This document shows, piece by piece, positions 24,048-27,949 of a stretch of DNA of 58,559 nt. Source of the DNA: Desulfuromonadales bacterium (GTDB taxonomy: Bacteria; Desulfobacterota; Desulfuromonadia; Desulfuromonadales; Geopsychrobacteraceae); the NCBI GenBank assembly GCA_019429255.1, contig JAHYIY010000016.1:1-58559 (forward strand), given 5' to 3'. Both the position numbers and the translations under genes were made by a program. The stretch's first letter is position 1. Each line of letters starts with the position of its first letter. The notes beneath the pieces are model-generated. The model did not search any database. It worked only from the letters and a program-made list of their open reading frames with translations, and had not been told where the DNA came from.

Positions 24048-24440
24048 GGCTGGAGAAGGACAGATGATCGCCGCCCGCCCTGGTTCGCCGGGGCGGGGGG
24101 AGGAAAGTCCGGGCTCCACAGGACGGGATGGTTCCTAACGGGAACCGGGGGTGACCCCAGGGAAAGTGCCACAGAGAGGAGACCGCCCGCAGTTTTTTTT
24201 CGGCGGGTAAGGGTGAAAGGGTGAGGTAAGAGCTCACCAGTTCCGGCGGCGACGGCGGAAGCTAGGTAAACCCCATCCGGAGCAAGGCCTAATAGGGGAA
24301 CGTTTGAGGGTGGTCCGCCCGAAGTTCCCGGGTTGGCCGCTTGAGGTTGTCGGCAACGGCAATCCTAGATGAATGATCATCACCCTGTTTTGCGGGTAAC
24401 TGCGCAGGGAACAGAACCCGGCTTACGGCCTTCTCCAGCC
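24048..24440 (+). ncRNA. rnpB: RNase P RNA, bacterial class A
   Basis: The catalytic RNA that matures tRNA 5' ends. The terminal P1 pairing GGCTGGAGAAGG / CCTTCTCCAGCC closes the molecule at both ends. The universal core GAGGAAAGTCCGGGCTCC (near 24101) and its partner ACAGAACCCGGCTTA (near 24410) are intact, as is AAGGCCTAATAGGGG-like J11/12 sequence in the middle. Length is about 393 bases. It is followed by a good terminator. Confidence 0.97.
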
Positions 24441-24492: not shown

Positions 24493-24555
24493 TAAAGTTG
24501 CCGATGCAGCATCACCGCCACCAGCTGTGGGAGCAGATTGTCGCCGAGGTTCAGG

Positions 24556-24575
24556 ATCACTATCTGTGATATAAT
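24556..24575 (+). promoter_or_regulatory. Candidate -10 box overlapped by an inverted repeat, ahead of the LOG operon
   Basis: A perfect TATAAT lies at 24570-24575, about 190 bases before the LOG gene. It is abutted by ATCAC-TATCT-GTGAT (24556-24570), a perfect 5+5 inverted repeat that would occlude the promoter spacer if bound. No good -35 box is visible, suggesting an activator or a regulated promoter. The remaining sequence of the 24493-24767 gap shows no convincing gene. Confidence 0.4.
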
Positions 24576-24767
24576 CGAAAACGCCTTGGCGCCCCAGCAG
24601 TTGAACAAATTTTAACGGGTCGAAGGGGCGTTGCGTCAACTGTATCTGGCGGTAGCCCAGCGCTATTCAGGAGCGGCCATGACCGGCCTGCTGTTGCAGT
24701 ATCAACGCCGGCAGGGACGATCCGTGTTTCAATTAAAAGCCGGCGCAGATGCCGAGGGAAATAGACC

Positions 24768-25793
24768 ATGTTCTTGAGTTTTGATCGTAATAACGGGGAC
24801 ATTGATGAATATATCGATCTGATGATGAGTAAGGCCGAGGTGCATCACCCCCGCTTGATCCGTGAGATGATCCTGACCGCCCTCAAGTCCGGTCAGGAAA
24901 ACAACTATATGGCGGACCAGAAACTGATGCGCACCACCATGAAGGAGATGCGCTATACCAACAAGATCTTTGCCCCCTATCGCCACCGTAAAAAGGTGAC
25001 GGTATTCGGTAGCGCCAGAACAACTCCGGACGAACCGATCTATCAGACCTGTGTTCAGTTCTGCCGCCAGCTGGTTGAGCACAACTATATGGTTATCACT
25101 GGTGGCGGACCCGGCATCATGCTGGCAGGAAATGAAGGCGCCGGTGCAGAGAACTCCTTCGCCGTCAATATTCATCTGCCCTTTGAGCAGGAAACCAATC
25201 CGGTGATGAGTGAAGATGATAAAGTCATCACCTACCGCTACTTTTTCAATCGTAAAGTGGCCTTTTTAAAAGAGGCCCACGCCGTCGCCCTGTTTCCCGG
25301 TGGTTTTGGTACCCTGGATGAGTCAATGGAAATTATGACCTTGATGCAGACCGGGAAGAATCCCCCCATACCCCTGGTACTGATTGATGATGAGGGTGGC
25401 TATTGGGATGACTGGTTCAAGTTTTTGCGCGACAGTCTGTTCAAACGTGGCCTGATTTCCGGTCAGGATTTTGGTTTGTTTACCATTACCCGTGATTATC
25501 GTGAGGCAATTCAGGTCATTGACGAGTTTTATCGTAACTACCATTCCATGCGTTATGTCGGTAAAAAACTGGTTGTCCGCTTGAATAAGCAACTCAGCCA
25601 GGAGCAGTGTGATACTCTGATCAGTGAGTTTAGCGAAATTCTTGCACCGGATGGAGCGATGATCCTCACCGAGGCCCTGCCCGAAGAACACGACCAGCCC
25701 GATCTGCACAAGTTGCCGCGCTTGATCATTGACTTTAATCAGCGCAGTTTCGGCCTGCTCAGTGCGTTGATCCGTCGCATAAACGTTTTCTAA
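24768..25793 (+). CDS. LOG family protein (PpnN/YgdH-like nucleotide hydrolase fold)
   Basis: LOG proteins have a Rossmann fold that usually cleaves nucleoside monophosphates to base and ribose phosphate; many are mis-annotated as lysine decarboxylase. The 341-residue protein shows VFGSARTTPDEP, TGGGPGIMLAGNEGA and the family signature PGGFGTLDE. It is longer than plant LOG enzymes (about 200 residues), with an N-terminal helical extension of about 80 residues and a C-terminal extension after residue 270, and so is closer in size to larger members. A GAGGG site precedes the ATG. The next gene follows after 12 bases, so the three genes to 27779 form one operon. Confidence 0.88.
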   Translation: MFLSFDRNNGDIDEYIDLMMSKAEVHHPRLIREMILTALKSGQENNYMADQKLMRTTMKEMRYTNKIFAPYRHRKKVTVFGSARTTPDEPIYQTCVQFCRQLVEHNYMVITGGGPGIMLAGNEGAGAENSFAVNIHLPFEQETNPVMSEDDKVITYRYFFNRKVAFLKEAHAVALFPGGFGTLDESMEIMTLMQTGKNPPIPLVLIDDEGGYWDDWFKFLRDSLFKRGLISGQDFGLFTITRDYREAIQVIDEFYRNYHSMRYVGKKLVVRLNKQLSQEQCDTLISEFSEILAPDGAMILTEALPEEHDQPDLHKLPRLIIDFNQRSFGLLSALIRRINVF

Positions 25794-25805
25794 AAGTACA
25801 TCGAC

Positions 25806-26927
25806 ATGACTATTGAACACACCGGCATTCCCATCAGTCCCACGCGCGTTGACATCGGTCGCCATGATCTTAAGCGCATGCACAATTTGGCTCGCACCCT
25901 GTTTCGCTTGAGCCGACGTGATTCCTATCGCCAGAAAATTTACCCTGAAGTGCCTGAGATTGCCCGTTTTGACCCCGGCCATGCCGCCCTGATGATGGGG
26001 TACGACTTTCATCTGGGACCGGACGGGCCGCGACTGATCGAGGTTAACACCAATGCCGGCGGTGCTTTTGTCGCCTGGAAAAGCCAGATGCGCGATTTGC
26101 AGGGGGGTGACGGCATCCCCCTGTCAGAGCGCTTTCAGCAGCGGTTGCTGTTCAGTTTCAAGCGTGAATGGCAGGATTTTTCCAGATCGCCGCGAGCCCT
26201 TACGTGTCTGGTCATTGTCGATGAAGACCCCCCGAACCAACCCCTGTATCCGGAAATGGTCAGCTGTCGTGACTGGCTGGTCAGTCACGGCGTCGACGCG
26301 CGTATTGCCGATCCTGGCGAACTGCAGACCGGGGCCGATGGTGTTTATCATCAGGGGCACAAGGTTGACCTGATCTACAACCGTCACTGTGATTTTTATC
26401 TCGAAGAAGAAGCGTTGGCCACTTTGCGCAGCGCCTACCTGGCCGGCAGCGTCTGTCTGTCACCCAACCCCTTTGCCTATGGCCTGCTGGCGGACAAGCG
26501 GCGGATGATCCTCTGGTCGGATGAAGTAGTGCTCCGCCAACTTGGCCTGTCAGCGGCAAAGACGCGGCTGCTGGTCGAGATGGTCCCTTTAAGTCGTCTG
26601 ATGTGTGATATGGATGCGGCTCAATTGTGGGATGAACGTAAGGAGTTGATTTTCAAACCGGTGAACAAGTTTGGCGGTCGTGGCGTGCTGATGGGTAAAA
26701 GCATTACCCGCAAGCGCTTTGCTGAACTGGAACCCGATTCAACCCTGGTGCAGCAAATCGTACCGCCATCCCAGGTGACGAGTCAGGAAGGCGAATCGTT
26801 CAAAGTCGACCTGCGCCTCTTTGTTTACCGCGATCATCTGCTTGGAGTCGGCGCCCGCTTGTACCAGGGCCAGCTCACCAATCTGCGCACACCGGGCGGT
26901 GGATTTGCTCCGGTGCGGATTGTGTGA
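25806..26927 (+). CDS. Circularly permuted ATP-grasp ligase-like protein, unknown substrate
   Basis: No characterised family was recognised with certainty. The 373-residue protein carries ATP-grasp features in permuted order. The metal-binding RLIEVNTNAGGA motif, normally near the C-terminus, lies at residues 76-87. The nucleotide-binding lysine and glycine-rich loop (LIFKPVNKFGGRGVLMGK) lie at about 281-298, followed by VDLRLFVY and TNLRTPGGG. This suggests formation of an amide or peptide-like bond with acyl-phosphate chemistry. It lies between a LOG protein and a class II amidotransferase in a tight operon. The ligase substrate is unknown; a glutathione synthetase-like reaction is only one possibility. 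Confidence 0.7.
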   Translation: MTIEHTGIPISPTRVDIGRHDLKRMHNLARTLFRLSRRDSYRQKIYPEVPEIARFDPGHAALMMGYDFHLGPDGPRLIEVNTNAGGAFVAWKSQMRDLQGGDGIPLSERFQQRLLFSFKREWQDFSRSPRALTCLVIVDEDPPNQPLYPEMVSCRDWLVSHGVDARIADPGELQTGADGVYHQGHKVDLIYNRHCDFYLEEEALATLRSAYLAGSVCLSPNPFAYGLLADKRRMILWSDEVVLRQLGLSAAKTRLLVEMVPLSRLMCDMDAAQLWDERKELIFKPVNKFGGRGVLMGKSITRKRFAELEPDSTLVQQIVPPSQVTSQEGESFKVDLRLFVYRDHLLGVGARLYQGQLTNLRTPGGGFAPVRIV

Positions 26928-26951
26928 CAGGAAGTTGTTGCGGAGAAAATC

Positions 26952-27779
26952 ATGTGCCAATTGCTTGGAATGAACTGCAATGTGCCGACGGACATCTGTT
27001 TTTCGTTTGCCGGTTTCAGAAAAAGAGGCGGATTGACAGATATCCACAAAGACGGCTGGGGGATTGGTTTTTTTGAGGGGAAGGGCACCCGCCTTTTTCT
27101 TGATCCTGAGCCGTCGGCGCAATCGGTACTGGCCGATCTGGTGCGCAGTTACCCTATTCGTTCACTGAATGTTATTGCGCATATCAGAAAAGCGACGGCT
27201 GGTGATGTTTCTCTGGAAAATACTCACCCTTTTATGCGGGAACTCTGGGGGAAAAACTGGCTGTTCGCCCATAACGGCCATCTGCCTGATTTTTGGCCTG
27301 AACTTGAAGGCACCATGACGCCGGTGGGAAACACCGACAGCGAATGGGTTTTCTGCTGGTTGCTGGAACGTCTGCGCGATCGTTTCGGCATCGCCCCACC
27401 ATCGCGGCAGGATCTGTTTGATGCCCTGGAGACGTTGATTCTTACCTTTGCCGGGAAGGGGATCAGCAATTTTCTGCTGTCCAACGGCGATGTCCTTATT
27501 GCCCACTGTTCAACCCACCTGAGCTATATCGTGCGGCAGGCACCCTTTGGTGAAGCCCATTTATCCGACGAGGACATGTCCGTTGACTTCCGTCAACTGA
27601 CGACGCCTGACGACCGGGTCGCCGTGATCACGTCAATGCCGTTAACCGACAACGAAGCCTGGGTCGATATGCGTCCCGGCACCCTGTGGATGTTCCATGA
27701 TGGCGAGGTCTGCGCCCAGCGTGACACGCTTCCGAGTCCGTTCAAATCGATGCAAGAGATGAACGCCTATCAAGGGTGA
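26952..27779 (+). CDS. Class II glutamine amidotransferase, YafJ/Dug3-like
   Basis: The 275-residue protein is a stand-alone Ntn-hydrolase glutaminase domain. Met1 is followed by Cys2 (MCQLLGMNC), which becomes the N-terminal nucleophile. Further hallmarks are HKDGWGIGFFEG, IAHIRKAT and the oxyanion region FAHNGHL. No synthase domain is attached. Yeast Dug3, in the same family, takes part in glutathione breakdown, and E. coli YafJ has no assigned role. A CGGAG site is 7 bases before the ATG. It follows the ATP-grasp gene by 24 bases, so it may supply ammonia to, or deglutamylate the product of, that enzyme. Confidence 0.88.
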   Translation: MCQLLGMNCNVPTDICFSFAGFRKRGGLTDIHKDGWGIGFFEGKGTRLFLDPEPSAQSVLADLVRSYPIRSLNVIAHIRKATAGDVSLENTHPFMRELWGKNWLFAHNGHLPDFWPELEGTMTPVGNTDSEWVFCWLLERLRDRFGIAPPSRQDLFDALETLILTFAGKGISNFLLSNGDVLIAHCSTHLSYIVRQAPFGEAHLSDEDMSVDFRQLTTPDDRVAVITSMPLTDNEAWVDMRPGTLWMFHDGEVCAQRDTLPSPFKSMQEMNAYQG

Positions 27780-27901
27780 TGGCGTCGCAAAAACTCGCCA
27801 ACTGCGGTGTTGCTGCCATCGTTTCGCTGCTTCGACGTACGTAAGTACGCCTCATTGCTCAACAATGGCGCGCCTTGCATTTGGCGCTTTTTGCTTAGCC
27901 A
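27780..27901. repeat. MITE/REP-like intergenic element with imperfect terminal inverted repeats
   Basis: The ends (27780-27801 and 27881-27901) are imperfect inverted repeats of TGGCnnnGCAAAAA...GCGCCAA type. The centre has a CGTACGTAAGTACG palindrome near 27835-27850. The element begins directly after the amidotransferase stop codon. It resembles GCAAAAA-containing intergenic repeats I recall from Geobacter-type genomes, but no second copy was found in this window. Confidence 0.5.
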
Positions 27902-27909
27902 TTGAACCT

Positions 27910-27930
27910 GATGCTTTTTGCGAAAGCATC
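27910..27930. terminator. Hairpin between convergent genes
   Basis: An 8-bp perfect stem (GATGCTTT / AAAGCATC) with a 5-base loop lies between the convergent amidotransferase and YciH-like genes. It lacks a clear T-run but could work in both directions. Confidence 0.45.
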
Positions 27931-27949
27931 AAGGGTGGGCACAGGGTAA

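Follow-up and report, generated by a model that had tools for sequence, protein, structure and literature searches.

Positions 1 to 58,559 of contig JAHYIY010000016.1 (assembly GCA_019429255.1), from a Desulfuromonadales bacterium, form the stretch of DNA analysed here, which we call the window. Three complete open reading frames follow one another on its + strand, coding for a LOG-family protein, a predicted circularly permuted ATP-grasp ligase and a glutamine amidotransferase (GATase). The ligase is the main subject of this report. The LOG and ATP-grasp genes are separated by 12 nucleotides (nt), and the ATP-grasp and GATase genes by 24 nt.

24768 to 25793, + strand: LOG-family (TIGR00730) protein of 341 amino acids, similar to nucleotide 5'-monophosphate phosphoribohydrolases and extended at both termini (from profile, motif and structure comparison)
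25806 to 26927, + strand: circularly permuted ATP-grasp ligase of 373 amino acids, proposed as a non-orthologous glutathione synthetase or gamma-glutamylcysteine amide ligase (from fold, conservation and co-occurrence with GshA)
26952 to 27779, + strand: YafJ-type class II GATase of 275 amino acids, probably inserted (from a GATase_4 match and synteny)

A first-pass annotation had read these genes as a compact operon whose enzymes would build or recycle one small amide-linked or gamma-glutamyl metabolite. The three frames, their spacing and the places of their motifs were confirmed in the sequence, including EVNTN at residues 79-83 and GGRG at 290-293 of the ATP-grasp protein, and the assignments of the LOG protein and of a GATase with nucleophile Cys2 were borne out by family scores above cut-off. 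That interpretation stood in part. Its enzymes and its permuted ATP-grasp were right and its unit was wrong; the guess of a gamma-glutamyl metabolite held, and the trio as its makers did not, the partner now pointed to being GshA, which is encoded elsewhere in the genome. We put the middle gene forward as a strong candidate for a glutathione synthetase of a new kind.

The ATP-grasp protein reaches the cut-off of no Pfam or NCBIfam model, and has no NCBIfam match up to E 1, TIGR01380 (GshB) included; five of its relatives likewise reach no NCBIfam cut-off. Two Pfam models of permuted ATP-grasp proteins score it below cut-off (CP_ATPgrasp_1, 20.9 of 23.1 bits; CP_ATPgrasp_2, 24.5 of 32 bits), and at E ≤ 0.01 they match 1 and 7, respectively, of 30 family members. 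In profile searches of the PDB, A1 and A2 matched 3n6x at E 0.14 and 0.056, respectively, and A1 also gave three further weak matches.

Modelling of the structure, one of the checks proposed in the first-pass annotation, together with comparison to the PDB, supports a genuine permuted ATP-grasp. The AlphaFold2 model has a predicted local distance difference test score (pLDDT) of 89.2 and a predicted template modelling score (pTM) of 0.90. Foldseek gave its best E-value, 2.8e-14, to Cp1B (9cjn). In VIA-align the whole chain matched the permuted ATP-grasp fold of the eukaryotic-type glutathione synthetases of human, potato and yeast (2hgs, 5oes and 1m0w; Z 26-28), with Z 28.3 and a root-mean-square deviation (rmsd) of 3.4 over 350 aligned residues for the potato enzyme, and Z 26.4 (rmsd 3.5, 359 aligned) for the human one. 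Soybean homoglutathione synthetase aligned with Z 27.4 (rmsd 3.5, 361 aligned). The GspS synthetase domain, YgiC and YjfC, also permuted ATP-grasp proteins, reached Z 24-25 at 12-13% identity (YgiC, Z 25.0, rmsd 3.6, 318 aligned; GspS, Z 24.6, rmsd 3.7, 321 aligned), and no match to the Pfam GspS family was found up to E 1. Values for non-permuted enzymes were Z 8.8 for RimK (rmsd 4.2, 210 aligned) and Z 7.7 for E. coli GshB (1gsa). The predicted fold of the ligase is thus the circularly permuted one of eukaryotic-type glutathione synthetases, although a fold alone shows no function. The ligase differs from those enzymes in being bacterial, in its length, which falls 75-106 residues short of their solved chains, in its identity of 11-12% in the structural alignments, and in having no sequence-family match with them; by motif order an E-x-N motif is common to both, and its genome also contains GshA.

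Cp1B is a fungal pseudodipeptide ligase, a natural-product enzyme that joins trans-epoxysuccinate to amino acids; the paper on it gives its residues R139, D141, E163 and N165 as conserved with glutathione synthetases, and reports that Ala replacement of each of the four abolished or weakened activity (PMC12568646). When this R-x-D ... E-x-N motif is followed in the window protein by motif order, and not by superposed coordinates, D67, E79 and N81 correspond to its Asp, Glu and Asn. These three residues are invariant in 30/30 sequences, and an alignment of 23 sequences shows no variation at E79, N81, N83, K284 or G293.

Distribution provides the second line of evidence. The window's genome contains a gene of the GshA family (PF04107), coding for a plant-type glutamate-cysteine ligase of 457 amino acids (TIGR01436, 393 bits against a cut-off of 463; 2gwc at E 7e-90, which we take to be the Brassica glutamate-cysteine ligase), and a profile search of this genome yielded no TIGR01380 candidate. 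In a search of 31 relatives, the GshA family was found in 29 and a strong GshB match (TIGR01380, E < 1e-60) in 6. We then consider a sample of the class, comprising 167 genomes with a completeness of at least 95, searched for the ATP-grasp protein (E ≤ 1e-15), PF04107 (E ≤ 1e-35) and TIGR01380 (E ≤ 1e-30). The ATP-grasp gene was present in 56 of the 167 genomes, all of them members of the window's order, for which the listed rows give 70 genomes, and in 0/97 elsewhere. PF04107 was found in 58/167 and GshB in 14/167, 6 of them above the family cut-off; within the order, 56/70 genomes have no GshB at threshold. PF04107 accompanies the ligase at threshold in 55 of the 56 carriers, and in the 56th the gene is split over two contigs (G017). 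Conversely, PF04107 occurs without the ligase in three genomes only (G043, G044 and G476). The last was excluded from the GshA count, its PF04107 gene being YbdK; the GshB of G044 scores above the PRK05246 and TIGR01380 cut-offs, and that of G043 above PRK05246 and just below TIGR01380. With G476 set aside, every PF04107 genome (57/57) has either the ligase or GshB, and no GshB match was found in 44/56 ligase carriers. The exchange can be seen within a single family (f8), where G380 has the ligase and no GshB, and G043 has GshB and no ligase. Both PF04107 and the ligase are lacking from 12 genomes of the order, spread over four families, of which f18 and f2 are wholly negative and f1 (G020) and f12 (G047) otherwise positive. 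In this class sample, the distribution of the ligase is that of a gene that occurs with GshA and covers for absent GshB.

We infer the reaction, the substrates and the product of the ligase from its predicted fold together with the motif residues, the co-occurrence and the absence of GshB observed here. GshA would make gamma-glutamylcysteine; the ligase would bind ATP between its domains and, helped by the Asp, Glu and Asn of the motif, phosphorylate the cysteinyl (C-terminal) carboxylate of gamma-glutamylcysteine; the acyl group would then be passed to an amine, most simply glycine, which would complete glutathione synthesis. The step proposed is that of GshB, a non-permuted ATP-grasp enzyme coded by an unrelated gene. 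On balance we favour this assignment by a little, taking the middle gene to code for a non-orthologous glutathione synthetase or for a close variant that uses another amine.

Several observations weigh against this assignment. Among Pfam and NCBIfam matches up to E 1 there is no eukaryotic glutathione synthetase family, and by motif order the Arg of Cp1B is Gly65 in the ligase. In 12 of the 56 carriers a GshB match is also present, above the TIGR01380 cut-off in 5, so that replacement is not strict. Of the 31 relatives, 14 more have weaker TIGR01380 matches only (best E 3e-21 to 3e-13), which we have taken for RimK-like proteins, and the PF04107 threshold was set after that search, to exclude weaker second matches. 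The identity of GshA was addressed with NCBIfam in the window's genome and G039 only, where TIGR01436 scored 393 and 372 of 463 bits, both below cut-off; the remaining PF04107 matches lie in frames of 433 amino acids or more. On a shared contig the ligase and PF04107 genes are never less than 13 kb apart (closest in G377). The Fisher test within the order (table 55/1/2/12) gives p 1e-10, a value that ignores relatedness, with the joint absences confined to the four families named above, two of them wholly negative; furthermore, the joint absence in G020 could be an assembly gap (420 contigs, 96% complete).

In view of the change from Arg to Gly, and of the GshB match in 12 of the carriers, the product may be a variant thiol. 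A distinct alternative is that the ligase starts from gamma-glutamylcysteine or glutathione and makes another thiol, such as homoglutathione (with beta-alanine), a different gamma-Glu-Cys-X, or a conjugate with a polyamine like that made by glutathionylspermidine synthetase. The fold class is common to homoglutathione synthetase (Z 27.4), YgiC (Z 25.0) and GspS (Z 24.6), the Gly in place of Arg hints at an acid or amine site of another kind, the same 12 carriers have a GshB match as well, and some members of a sister clade lie in metal-resistance islands. Against this, a ligase that consumes glutathione would be without substrate in the 44/56 carriers that have no GshB at E ≤ 1e-30, and GshB is present in both GshA genomes that lack the ligase, a pattern suggesting that the two enzymes are equivalent. 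We regard this alternative as rather unlikely, with perhaps half the weight of the glutathione synthetase assignment.

If a glutathione synthetase or its close variant is indeed encoded here, most of the sampled members of the order would make glutathione or a variant of it by an enzyme for which no family model exists (44/56 carriers have no GshB match), in an order noted for its metal- and sulfur-reducing members. A function would also be gained for a family annotated as hypothetical in nearly all the plasmid records listed, some of whose members lie in metal-resistance islands. A genome that has GshA and lacks GshB can be taken for that of an organism halting at gamma-glutamylcysteine; one report describes an archaeon of this kind, in which GshA is present and GshB apparently missing, and suggests that the thiol measured there was probably gamma-glutamylcysteine (PMC7278568). 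A search of titles and abstract openings, confined to the open-licence literature, showed among the matches listed nothing on this ATP-grasp family or on any bacterial glutathione synthetase of the permuted type.

To establish whether the three genes form a unit, each protein was searched in 60 relatives. The ATP-grasp protein was matched in 48 (47 without a marginal partial match in G028, E 8e-4) and LOG in 56. The conservation of the three genes among relatives, where nearly every match listed has an intact frame, shows them to be real genes and not chance reading frames. LOG and the ligase are adjacent on the same strand, with 11-37 nt between match ends, in 29/30 genomes of the window's family, and in 0/16 genomes of other families, counting genomes in which both genes were located and leaving out G050, which has no LOG match. 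The pair is an arrangement of that one family, which the tree and the named loci indicate to be probably Geopsychrobacteraceae. LOG occurs without the ligase in 10 of the 56 LOG genomes; among them are G035, whose contig stops at the ligase's expected place, and G020, which keeps LOG, has more than 4 kb of contig downstream without the ligase, and has no PF04107 match.

These data bear on a second alternative, in which LOG and the ligase would serve one nucleotide-linked pathway, LOG freeing a base or ribose phosphate and the ligase coupling it. The close spacing kept in 29/30 family genomes speaks for such a pathway, as does a weak association of presence over the 60 relatives (Fisher p 0.03, relatedness ignored). 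Speaking against it are the lack of adjacency in other families (0/16), the 10/56 genomes, such as G020, that keep LOG without the ligase, and the position of LOG in a conserved upstream block whether the ligase is present or not. LOG tracks the ligase much less well than GshA does. We consider this pathway improbable, and LOG as a functional partner of the ligase is weakened as a candidate by the LOG genomes that have no ligase. It is probably incidental to the function of the ligase, a separate nucleotide-5'-monophosphate hydrolase that would share a transcript with it in one family.

The LOG protein itself is well assigned by PF03641 (84 bits, cut-off 27) and TIGR00730 (97.7 bits, cut-off 96.35). 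It carries PGGFGTLDE at residues 177-185, and PGGxGTxxE is kept in 20/20 aligned sequences. Its predicted model is moderate (pLDDT 78); in it, residues 46-258 align with the type-II LOG 5wq3 at Z 24.1 (rmsd 4.0, 203 aligned), so that its core is like that of 5wq3, from which it differs in having extra conserved N- and C-terminal parts, being otherwise ordinary. The C-terminal stretch of about 80 residues (259-341) is conserved across 20 aligned sequences, is predicted to form strands and helices, and lies outside the coverage of the LOG structures compared.

The GATase also looks like an ordinary member of its family, with a match to PF13230 (GATase_4) of 400.6 bits, an N-terminal MCQ, and the YafJ-like 1te5 as closest solved sequence (E 8e-80). 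It was counted in 6/60 relatives, after exclusion of a seventh, the YafJ match in G055 (E 9e-4, 35% in a short region). It neighbours the ATP-grasp and LOG genes in the window's genome only; of the 5 other genomes, 3 have it on a different contig and 2 at a distance above 800 kb. In 3/7 relatives inspected, a convergent gene begins 2-38 nt past the ATP-grasp gene, and in the window the GATase gene and a 152-bp repeat stand between the two. The GATase looks inserted because it splits genes that are adjacent in some relatives and because a dispersed repeat follows it directly; it is probably a recent neighbour. The adjacency search that the first-pass annotation had itself proposed finds the trio in this genome alone, an outcome that it had named as refuting its reading, and synteny in relatives rules out the trio as an operon. 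A single amide-linked metabolite made by all three enzymes, with the GATase supplying ammonia (for instance for a glutathione-amide-like product), could draw on the tight packing here and on the presence of the ligase in 6/6 GATase genomes, yet it is very hard to sustain with a GATase that is found in 6/60 relatives, lies elsewhere in the genome in 5 of them and looks inserted in the sixth.

The ligase belongs to a wider family. A scan of a genome-contig collection (84,980 species) gave at least 577 relatives, of which the best 80 were kept, and a tree of 127 proteins separates a short clade (61 rows), which holds the window protein, from a longer clade (66 rows). The short clade includes Desulfuromonadales, Magnetococcales, Methylococcales and Thiotrichaceae; the longer one includes alpha-, beta- and gammaproteobacteria and plasmids, and in the sequences read it has an extra N-terminal stretch with a CxC motif. 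Among 33 plasmid records matched, 29 of the 30 rows listed are annotated as hypothetical, and the other row has no feature. In a class sample of Gammaproteobacteria the long form was found in 12/276 genomes at E ≤ 1e-40.

Long-form genes lie in copper/mercury islands at loci L118, L121, L125, L129, L130 and L141 and on plasmids at L151, L152, L155 and L156, beside genes such as those for heavy-metal P-type ATPases, CopB, multicopper oxidase or CueR, or mer genes. Core metal markers were present in 18/40 named long-clade loci (44 had been scanned as long form, of which the tree moves 4, none with a marker, to the short clade), in 4/6 plasmid loci chosen from the 33 records, and in 4/9 wider stretches taken from the genomes of named loci, for the most part those loci over again and consequently not independent. 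As controls, stretches from other places in such genomes gave 0/17, and LOG or YafJ loci 1/16. The markers were present in 2/12 loci of the gammaproteobacterial sample, where one locus comes from the genome of the query itself, with a shorter stretch, and in 2/56 short-form loci, which led us to reject metal resistance as a family-wide function. The metal link is real for some islands and is not general, and it has no part in assigning the window gene; the islands are suggestive of thiol chemistry for the long form, and are not evidence on that gene. A broader picture may be drawn tentatively, one that we hold at somewhat less than even: a third, permuted bacterial kind of glutathione synthetase, whose short clade would serve glutathione synthesis in Desulfuromonadales (perhaps also in Magnetococcales and Methylococcales), and whose longer, CxC-bearing sister clade would have been recruited in some lineages to mobile copper/mercury islands to supply thiols on demand.

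In other families the neighbours of the ligase vary by lineage, and no common pathway emerged among the loci inspected; they include a PatB-type C-S lyase, a major facilitator superfamily transporter (in Magnetococcales), LUD/Fe-S proteins and rubrerythrins. The PatB-family C-S lyase lies upstream of the ATP-grasp gene at L038:5342-6514 (4-nt overlap) and L044:5065-6246 (178 nt away), and would fit thiol metabolism. Beside the long form, a protein of 152 amino acids (L109:7208-7663, - strand; cluster c2) recurs in Alcanivorax, Marinobacter, Halomonadaceae and relatives of Pseudomonas; it looks ferritin- or hemerythrin-like by eye and gave 0 matches in Pfam or NCBIfam.

Around the three genes of the window lie the following elements:

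24052 to 24440, + strand: RNase P RNA (class A), part of the conserved block upstream of LOG (RNA search, 326 bits)
24504 to 24771, + strand: remains of a gene for a cysteine-rich protein with CxxC...CC (two tblastn pieces, about 24504-24563 and 24562-24771)
27780 to 27931, + strand: copy of a 152-bp dispersed repeat, starting one base past the GATase stop codon
27950 to 28351, - strand: convergent gene, presumably YciH/SUI1-like, often found downstream of the ATP-grasp gene in the window's family

The name of the convergent gene was assumed from its sequence, with no family search. The conserved block to which LOG belongs, whether the ligase is present or not, consists of genes that from their sequence we take to be dnaG, rpoD, nif3 and a zinc-ribbon gene, followed by rnpB. 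Between rnpB and LOG, the cysteine-rich gene is intact in three genomes of the same genus (G001, G002 and G003), and in the window its middle part is gone and its reading frames are broken; a Pfam search with the intact G001 protein gave 0 matches at E ≤ 0.01. Defence-system models gave 0 matches up to E 0.001. The 152-bp repeat has 42 matches in the window's genome, partial ones counted, 16, 19 and 30 in three genomes of the same genus, 0 to 8 in five other family members tested, and 0 in four genomes from other families; its predicted fold is a long hairpin with imperfect pairing (z -3.6).

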